Positions 8,059 through 53,727 of a DNA stretch of 64,000 nt are shown one piece after another. Position 1 is the first letter of the stretch, and each line of letters begins with the position of its first letter. A program made the translations under genes and the position numbers. The stretch is from Permianibacter aggregans (GTDB lineage: Bacteria; Pseudomonadota; Gammaproteobacteria; Enterobacterales; Permianibacteraceae): assembly GCF_009756665.1 (NCBI RefSeq), contig NZ_CP037953.1, forward strand, positions 1,550,001 through 1,614,000. The letters are read 5' to 3'. The notes beneath the pieces are model-generated. The model saw nothing but the letters and a program-made list of their open reading frames with translations, was not told where the DNA came from and did not search any database.

Positions 8059-9099
8059 ATGAACGAGAACATGCCCAATCCTTTGAACCTGCGCGGCATC
8101 GAATTCACCGAATTCGTTGGCCCGAGCAATGAGCAACTGGAAAAGCTGTTCTGGGATTTCGGTTTTTCGAAAGTCCGTCGCCACAGAGACAAGGACATCG
8201 TGCTGTTCAAACAGAACGATATCCAGTTCCTGCTGAACAATGAGAAAGAAGGCTTCACCCGTGATTTCGCCAAGAAGCACGGCCCGGCCATTTCCTCAAT
8301 GGGCTGGCGCGTTGACGACGCTCAGTTCGCCCATGACGAAGCGGTGCGCCGCGGTGCCCGTTCCGCCAATGACACCAATAAAGATTTGCCGTATCCGGCG
8401 ATTTACGGCATTGGCGACAGCCTGATTTATTTCATCGACAAGTTTGGCCCGAAAGGCACGATTTACGACACCGATTTCGTTGCGCTCGATAACCCGAAAA
8501 ACCAGCCGGACAAAGGCTTCCTGTTTGTCGATCACCTGACCAACAACGTGCACAAAGGCACGATGCAAAAATGGTCGGACTTTTACCAGAACGTGTTCGG
8601 TTTTTATGAAGTGCGTTATTTCGACATCAAAGGCGTGAAAACCGGCCTGACGTCATATGCGCTACGTTCGCCGGATGGCTCATTCTGCATTCCAATCAAC
8701 GAGAACAAGGACGATCGCGACCAGATCGCCGAGTACCTGCGTGAATACGATGGCCCAGGCGTACAGCACCTGGCATTCGGTACCCGCGATATTCTGGCCT
8801 CGCTCGACAAAATGGTCGGCACCAGCATCGAAACGCTGGATATCGACGATGAGTATTATCAAGAAGTGTTCGACCGCGTGCCGAACGTCAAAGAAGATCA
8901 TCAGCGGATTCGCAAGCATCAAGTGCTGGTTGACGGCAACGAGAACGGTTACCTGCTGCAGATCTTCACTCGCAACATCATCGGCCCGATCTTTATCGAG
9001 ATCATCCAGCGCGAGAATGACCTTGGCTTCGGCGAAGGCAACTTCGGCGCGCTGTTCCGCTCGATTGAAAAAGATCAGGAACGTCGTGGCGTGATCTAA
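8059..9099 (+). CDS. hppD: 4-hydroxyphenylpyruvate dioxygenase
   Basis: 346 residues, the usual size for bacterial HPPD. This Fe(II) enzyme converts 4-hydroxyphenylpyruvate to homogentisate in tyrosine degradation, or pyomelanin formation if homogentisate accumulates. The C-terminal metal domain has the expected facial triad by spacing: His159 (VDHLTNNV), His237 (VQHLAF) and Glu314 (IFIEIIQRE). The conserved C-terminal GFGEGNFGALFRSIE segment is present. It sits alone, without hmgA or fahA in the window, opposite a LysR regulator and followed by a strong terminator, so it is probably monocistronic. Confidence 0.97.
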   Translation: MNENMPNPLNLRGIEFTEFVGPSNEQLEKLFWDFGFSKVRRHRDKDIVLFKQNDIQFLLNNEKEGFTRDFAKKHGPAISSMGWRVDDAQFAHDEAVRRGARSANDTNKDLPYPAIYGIGDSLIYFIDKFGPKGTIYDTDFVALDNPKNQPDKGFLFVDHLTNNVHKGTMQKWSDFYQNVFGFYEVRYFDIKGVKTGLTSYALRSPDGSFCIPINENKDDRDQIAEYLREYDGPGVQHLAFGTRDILASLDKMVGTSIETLDIDDEYYQEVFDRVPNVKEDHQRIRKHQVLVDGNENGYLLQIFTRNIIGPIFIEIIQRENDLGFGEGNFGALFRSIEKDQERRGVI

Positions 9100-9114
9100 G
9101 CCTGACCGAATAAA

Positions 9115-9144
9115 AAAGCCCGCGTTATCGCGGGCTTTTTTTTA
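9115..9144 (+). terminator. Rho-independent terminator of hppD
   Basis: Perfect 7-bp stem GCCCGCG/CGCGGGC with a TTAT loop (9118-9135), followed by a run of nine T, 18 bases after the hppD stop. Confidence 0.92.
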
Positions 9145-9174
9145 CTAAAATTCATCTGGTGAAAAACGCAAACG

Positions 9175-9207
9175 AAAAAAGGGCCGTTACCTTTTGGGTA
9201 ACGGCCC
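9175..9207 (-). terminator. Minus-strand rho-independent terminator of the candidate RNA
   Basis: Perfect 11-bp stem (GGGCCGTTACC at 9181-9191 with its complement at 9197-9207). On the minus strand it is followed by six T, so it terminates leftward transcription. No protein gene lies upstream of it on that strand. Confidence 0.8.
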
Positions 9208-9420
9208 TCGCAATCGCGAACCACCTGAAAACCAGGTTCCCTGAAAGCTGTTACTCATCGAAATGAACAACAGCGAGGTGCACACCCCAAAGCGACTCTA
9301 AAAAGAGGCTTTGGCAGCAGCCAACGTCAAAATTGCTTTCCCGAGCGTGACCATCCACTGGTCGCCACCATGCAAACGTGACGTTGGCCGCTGGAAGGCA
9401 TTACAACGTCTGAACGCCCC
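9175..9420 (-). ncRNA. Candidate structured small RNA, family not recognised
   Basis: Read on the minus strand, the segment folds into a chain of perfect helices ending in a terminator. A long rod comes first: a 9-bp closing stem GCCAACGTC/GACGTTGGC (9320-9328 with 9380-9388), inner TTGC/GCAA, and a 5-bp tip stem (9349-9353/9359-9363) whose loop reads GTGGA. A 7-bp stem with an inner 4-bp stem follows (9287-9314). Then comes GCTGTT/AACAGC with an inner TCAT-TTCG-ATGA hairpin (9247-9274), whose UUCG tetraloop exists only on the minus strand. A small hairpin (9223-9237) and the 11-bp terminator complete it. No protein frame explains the segment. It matches no 6S, RNase P, tmRNA or SRP motif I know. 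The 5' end is a guess. Confidence 0.55.
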
Positions 9421-9560
9421 TCATTCAATGATCATTTGGTATCAGTTTGTAGCTTTTTGTACAGATTCACATTTCGCGCGGCTTGTCATGATTTAGCCCT
9501 TGCAGTAACGTGCGCGCCACTTCACAAACAAATAGTCGCGAAGCGACGTAATCCTTTCAG

Positions 9561-9697
9561 CCCTCTCCCCCTTGTGGGAGAGGGTGGCGCGAAGCGCCCG
9601 GACAAATTCGCCGGGAGCGAATTTGCACGGCGTAGCCGCCCGCAGGGTGGCCGCCTTGATTGGCGGCCATGAAAGGGGAACGCGAGCCGCAAGCGGC
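9561..9697. repeat. Cluster of perfect palindromes before prmA
   Basis: Six hairpins in 137 bp: CCCTCTCCC/GGGAGAGGG (9561-9584); GGCGC/GCGCC (9586-9598); CAAATTCGC/GCGAATTTG with loop CGGGA (9603-9625); CGGC/GCCG (9628-9638); GGCCGCC/GGCGGCC (9649-9668); GCCGC/GCGGC (9686-9697). The first two resemble widespread intergenic REP-like palindromes of proteobacteria. They lie in the presumed 5' leader of prmA, so an effect on that mRNA is possible. Nothing else is seen between 9421 and 9560. Confidence 0.75.
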
Positions 9698-9715: not shown

Positions 9716-10612
9716 ATGTCGTTTATCGAACTGAAAATTCAGGTCAACAAAACTCAAGCCGAAGCGCTCGATGAATTGCTGATGGAGTTCGGCTCGTTGG
9801 CCGTGACGCTGGAAGACGCTGAAGATCAGCCGATACTGGAACCGGGCCCCGGCGAAACGCCGCTCTGGCAACAGATTGTGTTGACCGCGTTGTTCGACAG
9901 CGACATCGACCGGGAAGCGACGCTGGCCGCAATTCAGGCCGATGAAGCCTGGCCTGCTGGCGCCCACGCCCGCTTTCAGGCGGTGCCCGATCAGGATTGG
10001 GTAAGGGCCTGGATGGACCGCTTCCAGCCGATGCCGTTCGGCACCAAGCTCTGGGTTTGCCCGAGCTGGCGACCCATTCCGGCAGAAGCAAAGGTGCCGC
10101 TGCTGCTCGATCCGGGTCTGGCCTTTGGCACCGGCACCCATTCGACCACGAGGCTCTGCCTGGAATGGCTTGATAGCGCCGATCTCAGCGGCAAGCATGT
10201 ACTCGATTTTGGTTGTGGATCCGGCATTCTGGCAATCGCAGCCGGTAAACTTGGTGCCGCCAAACTGACCGCGCTAGACAATGATCCGCAGGCGCTGATT
10301 GCCACCCGCGAAAATGCCGAGCGCAATGGCATTGCCGCCGACCAAATCGATATTCAGTTGCCGCCGCTGGCCGAAGGTTTTCACTGCGACGTGATTCTGG
10401 CCAATATTCTGGCCGAACCATTACGGCAACTGGCGCCGCTTTTCGCCACGGTGTTGAAGCCGGGTGGAGCGCTGGTACTCAGCGGACTATTGGCCGAACA
10501 GGCCGACGAATTACTTGCGCGCTATCAGCCCTGGTTTGATAGTCTTGCGGTCAGCCAGCATGAAGACTGGATACGCATTGACGGCAAGCGCAATTTCACG
10601 GATGTGACATGA
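9716..10612 (+). CDS. prmA: Ribosomal protein L11 methyltransferase
   Basis: 298 residues from ATG 9716, chosen because AGGA lies about 8 bases upstream and the translation begins at the family's usual MSFIELKI. The frame extends back to 9572 through the palindrome cluster, which is unlikely to be coding. The N-terminal L11-recognition domain is followed by a linker with LDPGLAFGTGTHSTT and a class I S-adenosylmethionine fold (VLDFGCGSGILAIAA, NILAEPL). It trimethylates lysines and the N-terminus of ribosomal protein L11 in the cytoplasm. Its stop overlaps the next start by four bases (ATGA). Confidence 0.97.
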   Translation: MSFIELKIQVNKTQAEALDELLMEFGSLAVTLEDAEDQPILEPGPGETPLWQQIVLTALFDSDIDREATLAAIQADEAWPAGAHARFQAVPDQDWVRAWMDRFQPMPFGTKLWVCPSWRPIPAEAKVPLLLDPGLAFGTGTHSTTRLCLEWLDSADLSGKHVLDFGCGSGILAIAAGKLGAAKLTALDNDPQALIATRENAERNGIAADQIDIQLPPLAEGFHCDVILANILAEPLRQLAPLFATVLKPGGALVLSGLLAEQADELLARYQPWFDSLAVSQHEDWIRIDGKRNFTDVT

Positions 10613-13218
10613 CCGATTTTTATACCCGCTGCCCGCACTGTCAGACGGTTTTTCGTCTCAGTGCTGCCCAGCTACAGCTTGCTGAAGGAAAAGTTCGCTG
10701 CGGCGCCTGCCTGCATGTATTTCTAGCCAAGCAACACCTGGTCAGGCCGAAAGCCGGCCCAGCTCCAGCTCCAGCTCCAGCTCCAGCTCCAGCTCCAGCT
10801 CCAGCTCCAGCTCCAGCTCCAGCTCCAGCTCCAGCTCCAGCTCCAGCTCCAGCTCCAGCTCCAGCTCCAGCTCCAGCTCCAGCTCCAGCTCCAGCTCCGG
10901 CTCCAGTTCCGGCTCCAGTTCCGGCTCCAGTTCCGGCTCCAGTTCCGGCTCCAGTTCCGGCTCCAGTTCCGGCTCCAGTTCCGGCTCCAGCTCCGGCTCC
11001 AGTTCCGGCTCCAGTTCCGGCTCCAGCTCCGGCTCCAGCTCCGGCTCCGGCTCCAGCTCCGGCTCCAGCTCCGGCTCCAGTTCCGGCTCCAGTTCCGGCT
11101 CCAGTTCCGGCTCCAGTTCCGGCTCCAGTTCCGGCTCCAGTTCCGGCTCCAGTTCCGGCTCCAGTTCCGGCTCCAGCTCCAGCTCCAGCTCCAGCTCCGG
11201 CTCCAGTTCCGGCTCCAGTTCCGGCTCCAGTTCCGGCTCCAGTTCCGGCTCCAGTTCCGGCTCCAGTTCCGGCTCCAGTTCCGGCTCCAGCTCCGGCTCC
11301 AGTTCCGGCTCCAGTTCCGGCTCCAGCTCCGGCTCCAGCTCCGGCTCCGGCTCCAGCTCCGGCTCCAGCTCCGGCTCCAGTTCCGGCTCCAGTTCCGGCT
11401 CCAGTTCCGGCTCCAGCTCCGGCTCCAGTTCCGGCTCCAGTTCCGGCTCCAGTTCCGGCTCCAGTTCCGGCTCCAGTTCCGCCGGTTGCGTCGGATGACC
11501 CATTCGCAGTCTTTGCCAACTCGCCGTTGCCGAAAGTTGCCAAACCTGCCGCGTCGGCGCCTGTTCCGGCGCCTGCACCGATACCTGAACCCGAACCGGA
11601 GATCGACGATGAACCACTGTGGATCAACGATGACCCGGAAGTGGATTTGGCCGAATCGGCCCGCGAGACCGCCCAGGGTTCACATAGCTGGTTGAGCTCG
11701 TTTACCACCAAGGAACAGCCGCAACCAGCCGATGCCGATTACCAACCGGAAGTCGATGAAATTGATTTAAGCCTGGATGCACCGGGTCAGCACGACATCG
11801 AATTCACACCTTCGCGTCATGCTGAAGCCTTGGTATCCGAGACGACTGACGAACCTTTCCTTGATGAAAGCGAATTGGCGTTTGAGGCGAAATTTGACGA
11901 TGAGGCCCTGGTTTCGGAAGCACCGGCGGAAGCCTTGGATCTGACCCCGGCCGAAACCGAACAAGGACCAGCGTTTGTCCATCGTGATGCGCCGTCTGCG
12001 GCCGTGCCGGAAATCGAGAGCATCGATCTGGACGCCGAGCTGCCGGATCTGCGCGCCGACGAACTTGATGAACTGGAATCCCTGGAACAAAACGAAACGC
12101 CGGAACAGCACATGGCGCTTGAACCGGAAAGTTTTGATCTGGATATCCATGATCCGGAAACGGACTCGACGGAAGCCGAGCCTTCGGTGGACGAAGAAGA
12201 TACCCTCGATGAACCGGAAACGCCGCCGGAGAACGACTGGGATTTATTGCGTCCCAGTCGTGATCGTCATGAGCCAGTGTTTGATGACGACAACGGTCTG
12301 GAATCGGAATCCGAACCAAGCCGGGCGTTCGCGGTAGAAGAAAGCCAGCCAGACGCTGCTGACGAAGATTACCTTGAGGCCAACGAGCCAATCGACGCGA
12401 CGGAAAGTGATGCCGAGGAATCGACCAGCGATGAAGCAGTAGCCGAACCGCCAGAAGCAGAAATCCCCACGGCAGAGACGCCTCCGCCACCGGTGGAAAT
12501 CGTCGACTTCGGTGAAACCGATGCGAACTGGGTCGACCCGAGTTCACGCGTGGAAACCGTCGATATCACTAATCCGCTGCCGAAAAGCCGGCCGAAAGCG
12601 AAACAAATCGCTGACGCGTTACGCAAACCCACCGCTAGCGAGCCATTGGCGCTCGATGACAGCTGGACGCTGGAACCGATGGGTCATGACAGTTTTGATC
12701 ACGCCCTCTCGCAACATCAACAACGTCGCTTCCCGTGGAAGGCGGTGTTGTGGACGTTGGCGGCATTGCTGCTCGGCACCGTATTGGCAGCGCAATACCT
12801 CTGGAGTCAGCGTGTCGAAATGCGCGACGACCCGACGTTCGGGCCGTTGATCGAATCGGCTTGTGAGATCGTTGGCTGTGAACTGCCGCCAAAACGCGAC
12901 ATCAACAAAATCGTCATCAAGCAGAAGAGCGTGATCAAGGAACGCGACGACGCCCGCAAGCTGAAAATCGATTTGTTGATCGTCAATCAGGCCGGCTTCG
13001 ATCAGCCCTACCCGGACCTGATGCTGCGCTTCACCAATATCGAAGGCAAGGTGGTCGCCGAAGACCGTTTCGCGCCGAACGAATACCTGCGCGAGATGCC
13101 GGAAGAGCCGATGATGCCGATGGACATTCCGGTGCATGTCTCGTTCATCGTGCGCTCGCCGTCGGACGCGGTCACCGGCTACGAATTCCGCTTTCTGGAA
13201 CCCAAGCCGGCGAAATAA
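10609..13218 (+). CDS. Zinc-ribbon/DUF3426 membrane protein with giant Pro-Ala repeat
   Basis: 869 residues, far longer than usual DUF3426 proteins because of an insert. The N-terminus is an MJ0042-type zinc ribbon with Cys8, Cys11, Cys31 and Cys34. Residues about 51-294 are almost pure Pro-Ala and Pro-Val dipeptides. Residues about 300-700 are highly acidic and disordered-looking. A membrane segment lies near 708-732 (WKAVLWTLAALLLGTVLAAQ), and the DUF3426 domain forms the C-terminus. By topology the zinc ribbon and repeat are cytoplasmic and DUF3426 periplasmic. Function is unknown. The gene overlaps prmA by 4 bp; in other gammaproteobacteria DUF3426 genes also follow prmA and precede dusB-fis. 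Confidence 0.93.
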   Translation: MTDFYTRCPHCQTVFRLSAAQLQLAEGKVRCGACLHVFLAKQHLVRPKAGPAPAPAPAPAPAPAPAPAPAPAPAPAPAPAPAPAPAPAPAPAPAPAPAPVPAPVPAPVPAPVPAPVPAPVPAPVPAPAPAPVPAPVPAPAPAPAPAPAPAPAPAPAPVPAPVPAPVPAPVPAPVPAPVPAPVPAPVPAPAPAPAPAPAPVPAPVPAPVPAPVPAPVPAPVPAPVPAPAPAPVPAPVPAPAPAPAPAPAPAPAPAPAPVPAPVPAPVPAPAPAPVPAPVPAPVPAPVPAPVPPVASDDPFAVFANSPLPKVAKPAASAPVPAPAPIPEPEPEIDDEPLWINDDPEVDLAESARETAQGSHSWLSSFTTKEQPQPADADYQPEVDEIDLSLDAPGQHDIEFTPSRHAEALVSETTDEPFLDESELAFEAKFDDEALVSEAPAEALDLTPAETEQGPAFVHRDAPSAAVPEIESIDLDAELPDLRADELDELESLEQNETPEQHMALEPESFDLDIHDPETDSTEAEPSVDEEDTLDEPETPPENDWDLLRPSRDRHEPVFDDDNGLESESEPSRAFAVEESQPDAADEDYLEANEPIDATESDAEESTSDEAVAEPPEAEIPTAETPPPPVEIVDFGETDANWVDPSSRVETVDITNPLPKSRPKAKQIADALRKPTASEPLALDDSWTLEPMGHDSFDHALSQHQQRRFPWKAVLWTLAALLLGTVLAAQYLWSQRVEMRDDPTFGPLIESACEIVGCELPPKRDINKIVIKQKSVIKERDDARKLKIDLLIVNQAGFDQPYPDLMLRFTNIEGKVVAEDRFAPNEYLREMPEEPMMPMDIPVHVSFIVRSPSDAVTGYEFRFLEPKPAK
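10759..11487 (+). repeat. Hexamer/dodecamer coding repeat with a 300-bp tandem duplication
   Basis: The stretch is built from CCAGCT hexamers and 12-mers such as CCGGCTCCAGTT, encoding Pro-Ala and Pro-Val runs. A higher-order copy exists: 10870-11176 equals 11170-11476 at an exact 300-bp offset, with a single difference (T at 11117, C at 11417). All units are multiples of six bases, so changes in copy number keep the frame. Confidence 0.95.
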
Positions 13219-28815: not shown

Positions 28816-29385
28816 TCAATCGCCGTAGCGATAATGCCCGGTCACTGGATACGCAAACAACACATCCTCTTGCCGGGTGCCGCGACCAATATTGTGAATA
28901 ATCAGCGGCACACCTTTCGCGTTTTTCTGCTCCGAAACGATGCCGATATGCGGAAGGTTGCCCGGTAGCATCCAGGTGACCAGATCGCCTGGCAAATAGC
29001 TCTCCGCGCGTGAGCTCACCGGCAATGATTGCCCGTGCCGCTGAAAAAATTTCTGCAAATTCGGCACCCGGCGATGATCAATATTCGTGTCCGGTTTGGT
29101 CAGCCCCCAGAGTTTCGGGTAGGCGCTGAAATGAGCGCGCATGTCCTGATGCACGCGCTGTTGCAGATCGATGCCGAGCAGGCGATAAGCGCGGATGATG
29201 ACATCAGTGCAGACGCCGGTATGGTTCGGCACATCGCCATTGGGATAGGCAATGCGTTGATAGCGACCGTCGTATTCAACGGTGACGCCGATTTGCTGGC
29301 GGGCAGCGTTGATTAGCGCTTGGGGTTCGGCTGAGGCGGTGAAGCTGAGTGTGACCAACAGTAGCAGTCCGTATCGTTTCATCAT
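28816..29385 (-). CDS. yijF: DUF1287 protein (YijF-like), secreted
   Basis: 189 residues with signal peptide (YGLLLLVTLSFTASA-E). The domain is an NlpC/P60-like papain fold of unknown activity: NHTGVCTDVIIRAYRLLGIDL carries the putative catalytic Cys, PHIGIVSEQ the His, and IIHNIGRGTRQEDVLF the third polar position. A cell-wall or peptide hydrolase role is inferred from the fold only. Confidence 0.88.
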   Translation of the reverse strand: MMKRYGLLLLVTLSFTASAEPQALINAARQQIGVTVEYDGRYQRIAYPNGDVPNHTGVCTDVIIRAYRLLGIDLQQRVHQDMRAHFSAYPKLWGLTKPDTNIDHRRVPNLQKFFQRHGQSLPVSSRAESYLPGDLVTWMLPGNLPHIGIVSEQKNAKGVPLIIHNIGRGTRQEDVLFAYPVTGHYRYGD

Positions 29386-29433
29386 TGTTCCTCTTATATC
29401 CCCGGAGGTTTAACCCCACCCCAACGTTCATTC

Positions 29434-29670
29434 GTGCCATCTGACCCACAGGGATGTGGGAAATGCCGAAAAGCGTATGGAACGCTTTCGGCCATGGCAC
29501 TCACCCTTCGGGCAGCTCCGCTGCGCACAAAATTGTCTGGAACAATTTTGAGGCGTAGCCCCGCTTACAGCGGGTTTGGTCCATGGATGGACCAAACAAA
29601 TCGGCAATCCTGCCGATTTGTCCCCTTGCCAGGGGAGGGAGCTGAGTTCCCCCTCCTGCTAAGGAGGGGG
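29434..29670. repeat. Array of nine to ten perfect hairpins, several with GGA in the loop
   Basis: An outer stem GTGCCAT/ATGGCAC (29434-29440 with 29494-29500) encloses two hairpins: CCCACA-GGGA-TGTGGG (29445-29460) and an 11-bp stem with loop ATGGA (29465-29492). Then come CCC-TTC-GGG and CAGC-TCC-GCTG (29504-29523), CAAAATTGT-CTGGA-ACAATTTTG (29528-29550) and CCCGCT/AGCGGG (29560-29574). TTTGGTCC-ATGGAT-GGACCAAA (29575-29596), a 10-bp stem with loop ATCC (29597-29620), TCCCCT/AGGGGA (29621-29636) and a 9-bp GC-rich stem (29649-29670) complete it. Stems differ in sequence while loops are alike. It fills the gap between yijF and cysJ; no gene is seen. Confidence 0.8.
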
Positions 29671-29824
29671 TTAGGGGGTGGTGAAACCCAAGCCACATGC
29701 CTCTCAGACCCGCCACATGCCATTTGGTTTTAACTGTGTAACCGCCGGTCCTTTCCGGATTGGACGGCCAAACCCTACCCTGCCTGCATAACCATCCCAT
29801 TACGACCCGGTAGGAGTACGCCCC

Positions 29825-53651: not shown

Positions 53652-53727
53652 TGGTGGAGATGAGGGGAGTCGAACCCCTGGCCTCGTCATTGCGAACGAC
53701 GCGCTCTACCAACTGAGCTACATCCCC
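53652..53727 (-). tRNA. tRNA-Ala (anticodon CGC)
   Basis: 76-nt cloverleaf with encoded CCA. Acceptor GGGGATG/CATCTCC contains the G3-U70 pair that identifies alanine tRNA. The D-arm is GCTC-AGTTGGTA-GAGC. The anticodon stem is CGTCG/TGACG with loop TTCGCAA, giving CGC (codon GCG). The T-arm is AGGGG-TTCGACT-CCCCT. Confidence 0.96.

Follow-up and report, generated by a model that had tools for sequence, protein, structure and literature searches.

Among described regulatory RNAs, the trans-acting, terminator-ended small RNAs (sRNAs) of gammaproteobacteria, that is, the Hfq class exemplified by OmrA/B and MicF, are what we take to be the closest kind to the locus reported here. Like these, the proposed sRNA is intergenic, carries its own terminator, lies behind a proposed OmpR/PhoB-like activator site and belongs to a genome with an Hfq gene. 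However, it has no sequence or Rfam match, and its conservation peaks in a structured rod tip, not in an open seed. At ~250 nt it is also longer than most Hfq-class sRNAs. A rod with internal loops is likewise a feature of 6S RNA (RF00013), but the present fold is not one long rod, and 6S RNA gave no match at the locus; the genome has its own, separate 6S gene at G000:C1:2649371-2649555. The conserved structure described below is real, is undescribed within the databases and literature searched, and belongs to a common type, the lineage-restricted sRNAs. It would add an undescribed sRNA family to a poorly studied gammaproteobacterial lineage, and a by-eye reading of 64 kb of DNA has in this case led to a conserved RNA structure absent from Rfam.

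Setting and predicted fold

The DNA analysed (the window) comprises 64,000 nt at positions 1,550,001-1,614,000 of the 4.27 Mb single-contig genome of Permianibacter aggregans (G000). The proposed sRNA locus lies between hppD (8059-9099, plus strand; TIGR01263), its convergent neighbour, and prmA (9719-10612, plus strand; TIGR00406 and PF06325), its divergent neighbour. A terminator scan placed an intrinsic terminator on the minus strand at 9175-9208, consisting of an 11-bp stem (9181-9207) and six T. The preliminary description had held that this terminator has no gene to end, and this proved correct: the same scan gave hppD a separate terminator on the plus strand (9112-9141), so that the 9175 terminator is without an annotated gene to serve. 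Beyond it no minus-strand gene follows in the window; the convergent hppD lies there. Between the proposed sRNA and prmA there is a repeated element (~9600-9673), similar copies of which occur elsewhere in G000 (L002, L003 and L008). The gene after prmA (10609-13218), presumably encoding a zinc-ribbon-like protein, has a very long PAPAPVPAP repeat in its product, which is shorter in the second genome of the genus (G001). A literature search of partial coverage found no text describing an sRNA next to prmA; in PMC3091763, PrmA is called a regulator.

Folding of the minus strand at 9165-9430 (266 nt) gave -116.1 kcal/mol, compared with -86.95 ± 4.54 kcal/mol for 200 dinucleotide shuffles, none of which was as good (z -6.4). 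In a GC-corrected scan of the 64 kb, the 250-nt interval from 9175 on the minus strand would rank about second among 1020 scanned segments (residual z -3.83, the best being -3.95), in agreement with the initial impression of a helix density above chance. In the same scan the most strongly folded 250-nt stretch, on both strands, was found at 29376-29750, which has the appearance of nested inverted repeats. The plus strand of the sRNA locus folds nearly as strikingly as the minus strand (z -7.7), and the strand can therefore not be chosen from fold energy alone.

On the evidence of the fold, the terminator and the alignment with G001, the proposed transcript would occupy 9175-9431 on the minus strand, with an uncertain 5′ end at 9415-9431. 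Its main element is a rod at 9315-9393, the region of model R1, in which a 15-bp helix (9379-9393 with 9315-9329) is capped by a conserved tip (9334-9374). The tip has the form UGC-AU-GGUG ... CGCU-CGGGAAA-GCA, with a 2x7 internal loop, and ends in the apical loop AGUGGAU (9353-9359). In the fold, the rod is followed by a second hairpin, CCAAAGCC...GCUUUGG, at 9287-9314, a 12-bp hairpin with a UUCG loop at 9247-9274, and small hairpins at 9237-9223 and 9219-9208, all on the minus strand. The UUCG loop is closed by a U-A pair and is thus not a classic cUUCGg. The helices and the leftward-pointing 11-bp terminator with its T-run, as well as GUGGA in the loop of the rod tip, had all been noted by eye and were all recovered by the fold and the terminator scan.

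A homologue beside prmA in a second genome

A DNA search of 59 genomes, G000 among them, gave one strong match besides G000 itself (E 1.8e-10). This match is in G001, which is the sole further genome of the genus that was examined, and the proposed sRNA is accordingly found in both of the two genomes of the genus. The homologue is located immediately upstream of prmA and divergent to it, while hppD of G001 is found ~4 kb away with other genes between; it is therefore prmA, and not hppD, that stays next to the sRNA. Scored against R1, the homologue reaches 102.6 bits, by construction, as the model was built from both copies. All covariation discussed here comes from these two sequences and is for that reason statistically light.

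The rod and tip align over 79 columns, with all 25 pairs kept in the window and 24 of the 25 modelled pairs in G001; the rod helix measures 14-15 bp. Five pairs, three of them consecutive, were changed on both sides, and two on one side via G-U. This result was equalled in 11 of 500 column shuffles, and sliding the partners left only 0-1 two-sided changes. Similarly, the terminator helix keeps 11/11 pairs in G001 with five two-sided changes, nearly half its letters having been replaced, and this copy was found again by the terminator scan on the same strand. Two properties of bacterial intergenic sRNA genes in general are thus present: an intrinsic terminator of its own on the coding strand, in G000 and in G001, and a secondary structure conserved through compensatory change, as seen in two sequences only. 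Loss of the helices without compensatory change in close relatives had been named in the preliminary description as evidence against a structured RNA; in G001, the only relative compared, the pairing of both rod and terminator was instead kept.

These data also settle the strand as minus, because of two G-U pairs and the T-run. Both G-U-containing pairs would become A-C on the plus strand, where 23 (G000) and 22 (G001) pairs are formed versus 25 and 24 on the minus strand, and the T-run lies on the minus strand in both genomes. The same observations bear on a plus-strand function, in which the locus would serve prmA as a structured 5′ UTR or as a regulatory region, the minus-strand appearance being a by-product. 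The strong plus-strand fold, the conservation of prmA as neighbour and the short distance between the upstream repeats and prmA in G001 (~90 bp) are in line with such a function, but given the A-C mismatches and the orientation of the T-runs we regard it as very improbable. The reading of the locus as a minus-strand structured RNA is supported by a homologue on the same strand and in the same place beside prmA, and the locus is predicted with high confidence to be a genuine RNA gene on the minus strand.

A mobile or repeat element, or a structure arisen by chance, is extremely unlikely. The repeated element noted above does adjoin the locus, but the sRNA region is present in a single copy in G000, is found at the same location in both genomes and shows compensatory changes. 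The best other match in G000, a 78% match at G000:3707168 (L090) tried as a paralogue, was rejected as lying inside an ORF.

Conservation is unevenly distributed along the RNA. None of the hairpins that separate the rod from the terminator, the UUCG hairpin among them, is conserved in G001 by alignment or by fold, and the place of the second hairpin (9287-9314) is taken there by no more than a small CUC/GAG hairpin. The initial reading was therefore well founded for the rod and the terminator, which are conserved, but placed too much weight on the middle hairpins. Both cores, folded alone, take the same shape (-40.0 and -37.9 kcal/mol). For full-length G001, a fold without the rod was 0.4 kcal/mol better than the rod-forced fold, which in this modelling argues slightly against the rod as the only form. 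Within the rod, the arms are identical between the genomes at 9/15 and 9/15 positions and the sides of the internal loop at 9/9 and 14/14. The tip is near letter-identical (UGCAUGGUG...CGCUCGGGAAAGCA), with an apical loop of AGUGGAU in G000 or AGCGGAG in G001, and GGA is kept in the apical and internal loops of both. Arms of free sequence combined with a fixed tip are the pattern of a scaffold presenting a working site. An alternative source of tip conservation would be an encoded 14-codon peptide (ATG GTG ... TGA), whose frame, start and stop are the same in both genomes; however, the first, second and third codon positions carry 3, 1 and 3 changes, without an excess at the third, and the ATG lies inside the rod and is not preceded by a visible ribosome-binding site, making such a peptide a highly improbable explanation.

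No match to 6S RNA, RNase P, tmRNA, SRP or a known riboswitch could be made when the locus was first read, and the searches agree. Rfam 15 at gathering score returned only a tRNA (53655-53727) from the whole window and nothing at the locus, and the 6S gene is encoded elsewhere. With E up to 10, the locus gave sub-threshold leader and terminator look-alikes only, none believable. The resemblance to the amino-acid operon leaders Leu_leader and Trp_leader consists of such cmscan matches (31.6 and 29.7 bits), but these fall below the gathering scores of 50 and 41, respectively, and no operon follows downstream; the two candidates were rejected, the matches being due to the two adjacent terminators. 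Over 394 genomes of the order, R1 found four matches at E ≤ 0.1 (G000, G001, L105 and L106) under strict filters by which weak relatives may be missed. L105, without the internal loop, and L106, with several helix pairs and the GGGAAA broken, were both rejected as chance. In class samples of 369 genomes, a 41-nt pattern (3 mismatches allowed) and R1 each returned only G000, and G001 is a match in neither. No match to the sRNA, R1 included, came from G002, a member of the same family, whose prmA has alongside it what we take to be a MerR-like gene. R1 was also run on 26 of 50 prmA-relative loci, the 24 weakest (L066-L089) being left out, and on two viral-contig stretches from a pattern scan; the best score was 15.2 bits (E 0.64; L045 and L046), taken as chance. 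Likewise, blastn of plasmids and phages gave no match to the sRNA. Of all the genomes examined, only the two of this genus (2/2) are thus known to have the sRNA, which would appear genus-restricted by these searches, the filters of which may lose weak relatives.

Candidate mode of action of the rod tip

In the proposed mechanism, an sRNA of ~240-255 nt would be transcribed leftward from a promoter switched on by an activator bound at three 10-bp direct repeats, and transcription would stop at the intrinsic terminator of the sRNA itself. The rod, with its covarying pairs, would act as a scaffold that is free in sequence. The working part would be the invariant tip, composed of the 2x7 internal loop AU/CGGGAAA and the AGYGGAK loop, and this tip would pair with mRNAs in trans, together with Hfq. 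As a whole, a stand-alone, activator-controlled, genus-restricted sRNA whose tip acts in trans, most probably through base pairing assisted by Hfq, is given about an even chance. Taken separately, action in trans through the tip is reasonably probable, and if the tip does act in this manner, base pairing is a little more probable than protein binding. The 41-nt tip forms a core of the sRNA that is open to test.

An Hfq gene (PF17209) was found in both G000 and G001, and ProQ (PF04352) in neither, with a positive E. coli control, which leans towards Hfq-type base pairing. Conversely, the invariant internal loop and the invariant pairs flanking it point to a protein or ligand site, for which they are no less suited than for a base-pairing seed. 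Base pairing is left with a modest lead over protein or ligand binding.

A protein-binding decoy, e.g. a small CsrA-sequestering RNA in which the two invariant GGA would form a dimeric site, is rather unlikely. Here the comparison is with RNAs of the CsrB/RsmZ/McaS type, with which the locus shares GGA in loops. The GGA of the apical and internal loops, 15 nt apart, are kept in both genomes, and the internal loop is flanked by invariant pairs. However, GGA occurs only three (G000) and four (G001) times in the 244 nt after the repeats, approximately as estimated from composition and too few for that type. Known CsrA sites have the consensus ANGGA, whereas the apical loop reads GYGGA and ANGGA hairpins are lacking, and Rfam gave no CsrB or Rsm family match.

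We also considered whether the RNA serves in cis, as a riboswitch or attenuator leader to a minus-strand gene lying downstream. This finds some basis in G001, where an unnamed gene for a 189-aa lipoprotein-like product starts on the same strand ~180 nt after the terminator, and in a leader segment of each genome (7 nt and 10 nt) that could pair with the 5′ arm of the rod in place of the 3′ arm. The competing helix was matched by 0/5000 shuffles in G001, and is marginal in the window (84/5000 shuffles and 176/4126 window segments). These segments lie, however, at different places in the two leaders. Moreover, the window has the convergent hppD in place of a downstream minus-strand gene, and it is prmA rather than the downstream neighbour (hppD versus the lipoprotein-like gene) that is conserved, leaving a leader function quite improbable. 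A further reading would make the locus a new RNA motif, with the 2x7 loop (AU/CGGGAAA) and AGYGGAK as a protein or ligand receptor, a 5′ leader segment copying the 3′ arm of the rod to give a two-helix switch, and an uncharacterised regulator of the TACAAA repeats; we consider this combination unlikely.

Upstream repeats

For the stand-alone sRNA, a promoter position is occupied by TACAAA-type repeats. Three TAC-starting 10-bp direct repeats, TACAAAAAGC TACAAACTGA TACCAAA..., are found at 9435-9461 on the minus strand, aligned and conserved in G001, and the block ATTGAATGAG is likewise kept in both genomes. The repeats are a putative activator site; their 10-bp spacing is, we assume, that of OmpR/PhoB-type regulators. 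The conserved block includes a candidate -10 element, TTGAAT (9423-9428, minus strand), and GATACC (9443-9438, minus strand) is an alternative; depending on the choice, the RNA would start at ~9431 or ~9416. A sigma-70 promoter scan gave no match at the locus on either strand, nor a promoter consensus in G001.

The three-repeat pattern, drawn from the 9435-9461 site itself, occurs once in the window. A two-repeat pattern gave 13 sites (8 in G000, including an overlapping pair, and 5 in G001), compared with 0 for the mirrored pattern. For 12 of the 13 loci, comparison with ORFs of at least 90 aa found 5/7 in G000 without overlap and 5/5 in G001 overlapping, a count that includes spurious ORFs, the G001 sRNA site itself being flagged. 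R1 on 10 of the 13 loci, leaving out the two sRNA loci themselves and the overlapping L123, scored at best 16.3 bits (E 0.058), away from any repeat site. The promoter motif, with a handful of other sites in the two genomes, is open to test.

The 10-bp direct repeat TACAnAAnnn is found at 9435-9461 (minus) in the window, at L117, L121, L127 and L129 in G000 and at L118, L120, L122 and L126 in G001. Possibly these sites make up an unnamed regulon, some of them inside coding sequence. At L121, the minus strand downstream of three repeats (~1250-1500) is ORF-poor with 7 GGA in 244 nt, and no minus-strand terminator was found in it. At L117 (1501-1701; G000:C1 ~1302603), three repeats are followed by a short terminated stretch (terminator 1663-1688) with a 33-aa ORF (MLRATKMIAPSAKSFVNFSRFKRMRSLMRFPFF), which might represent a further small RNA or a gene for a small protein.
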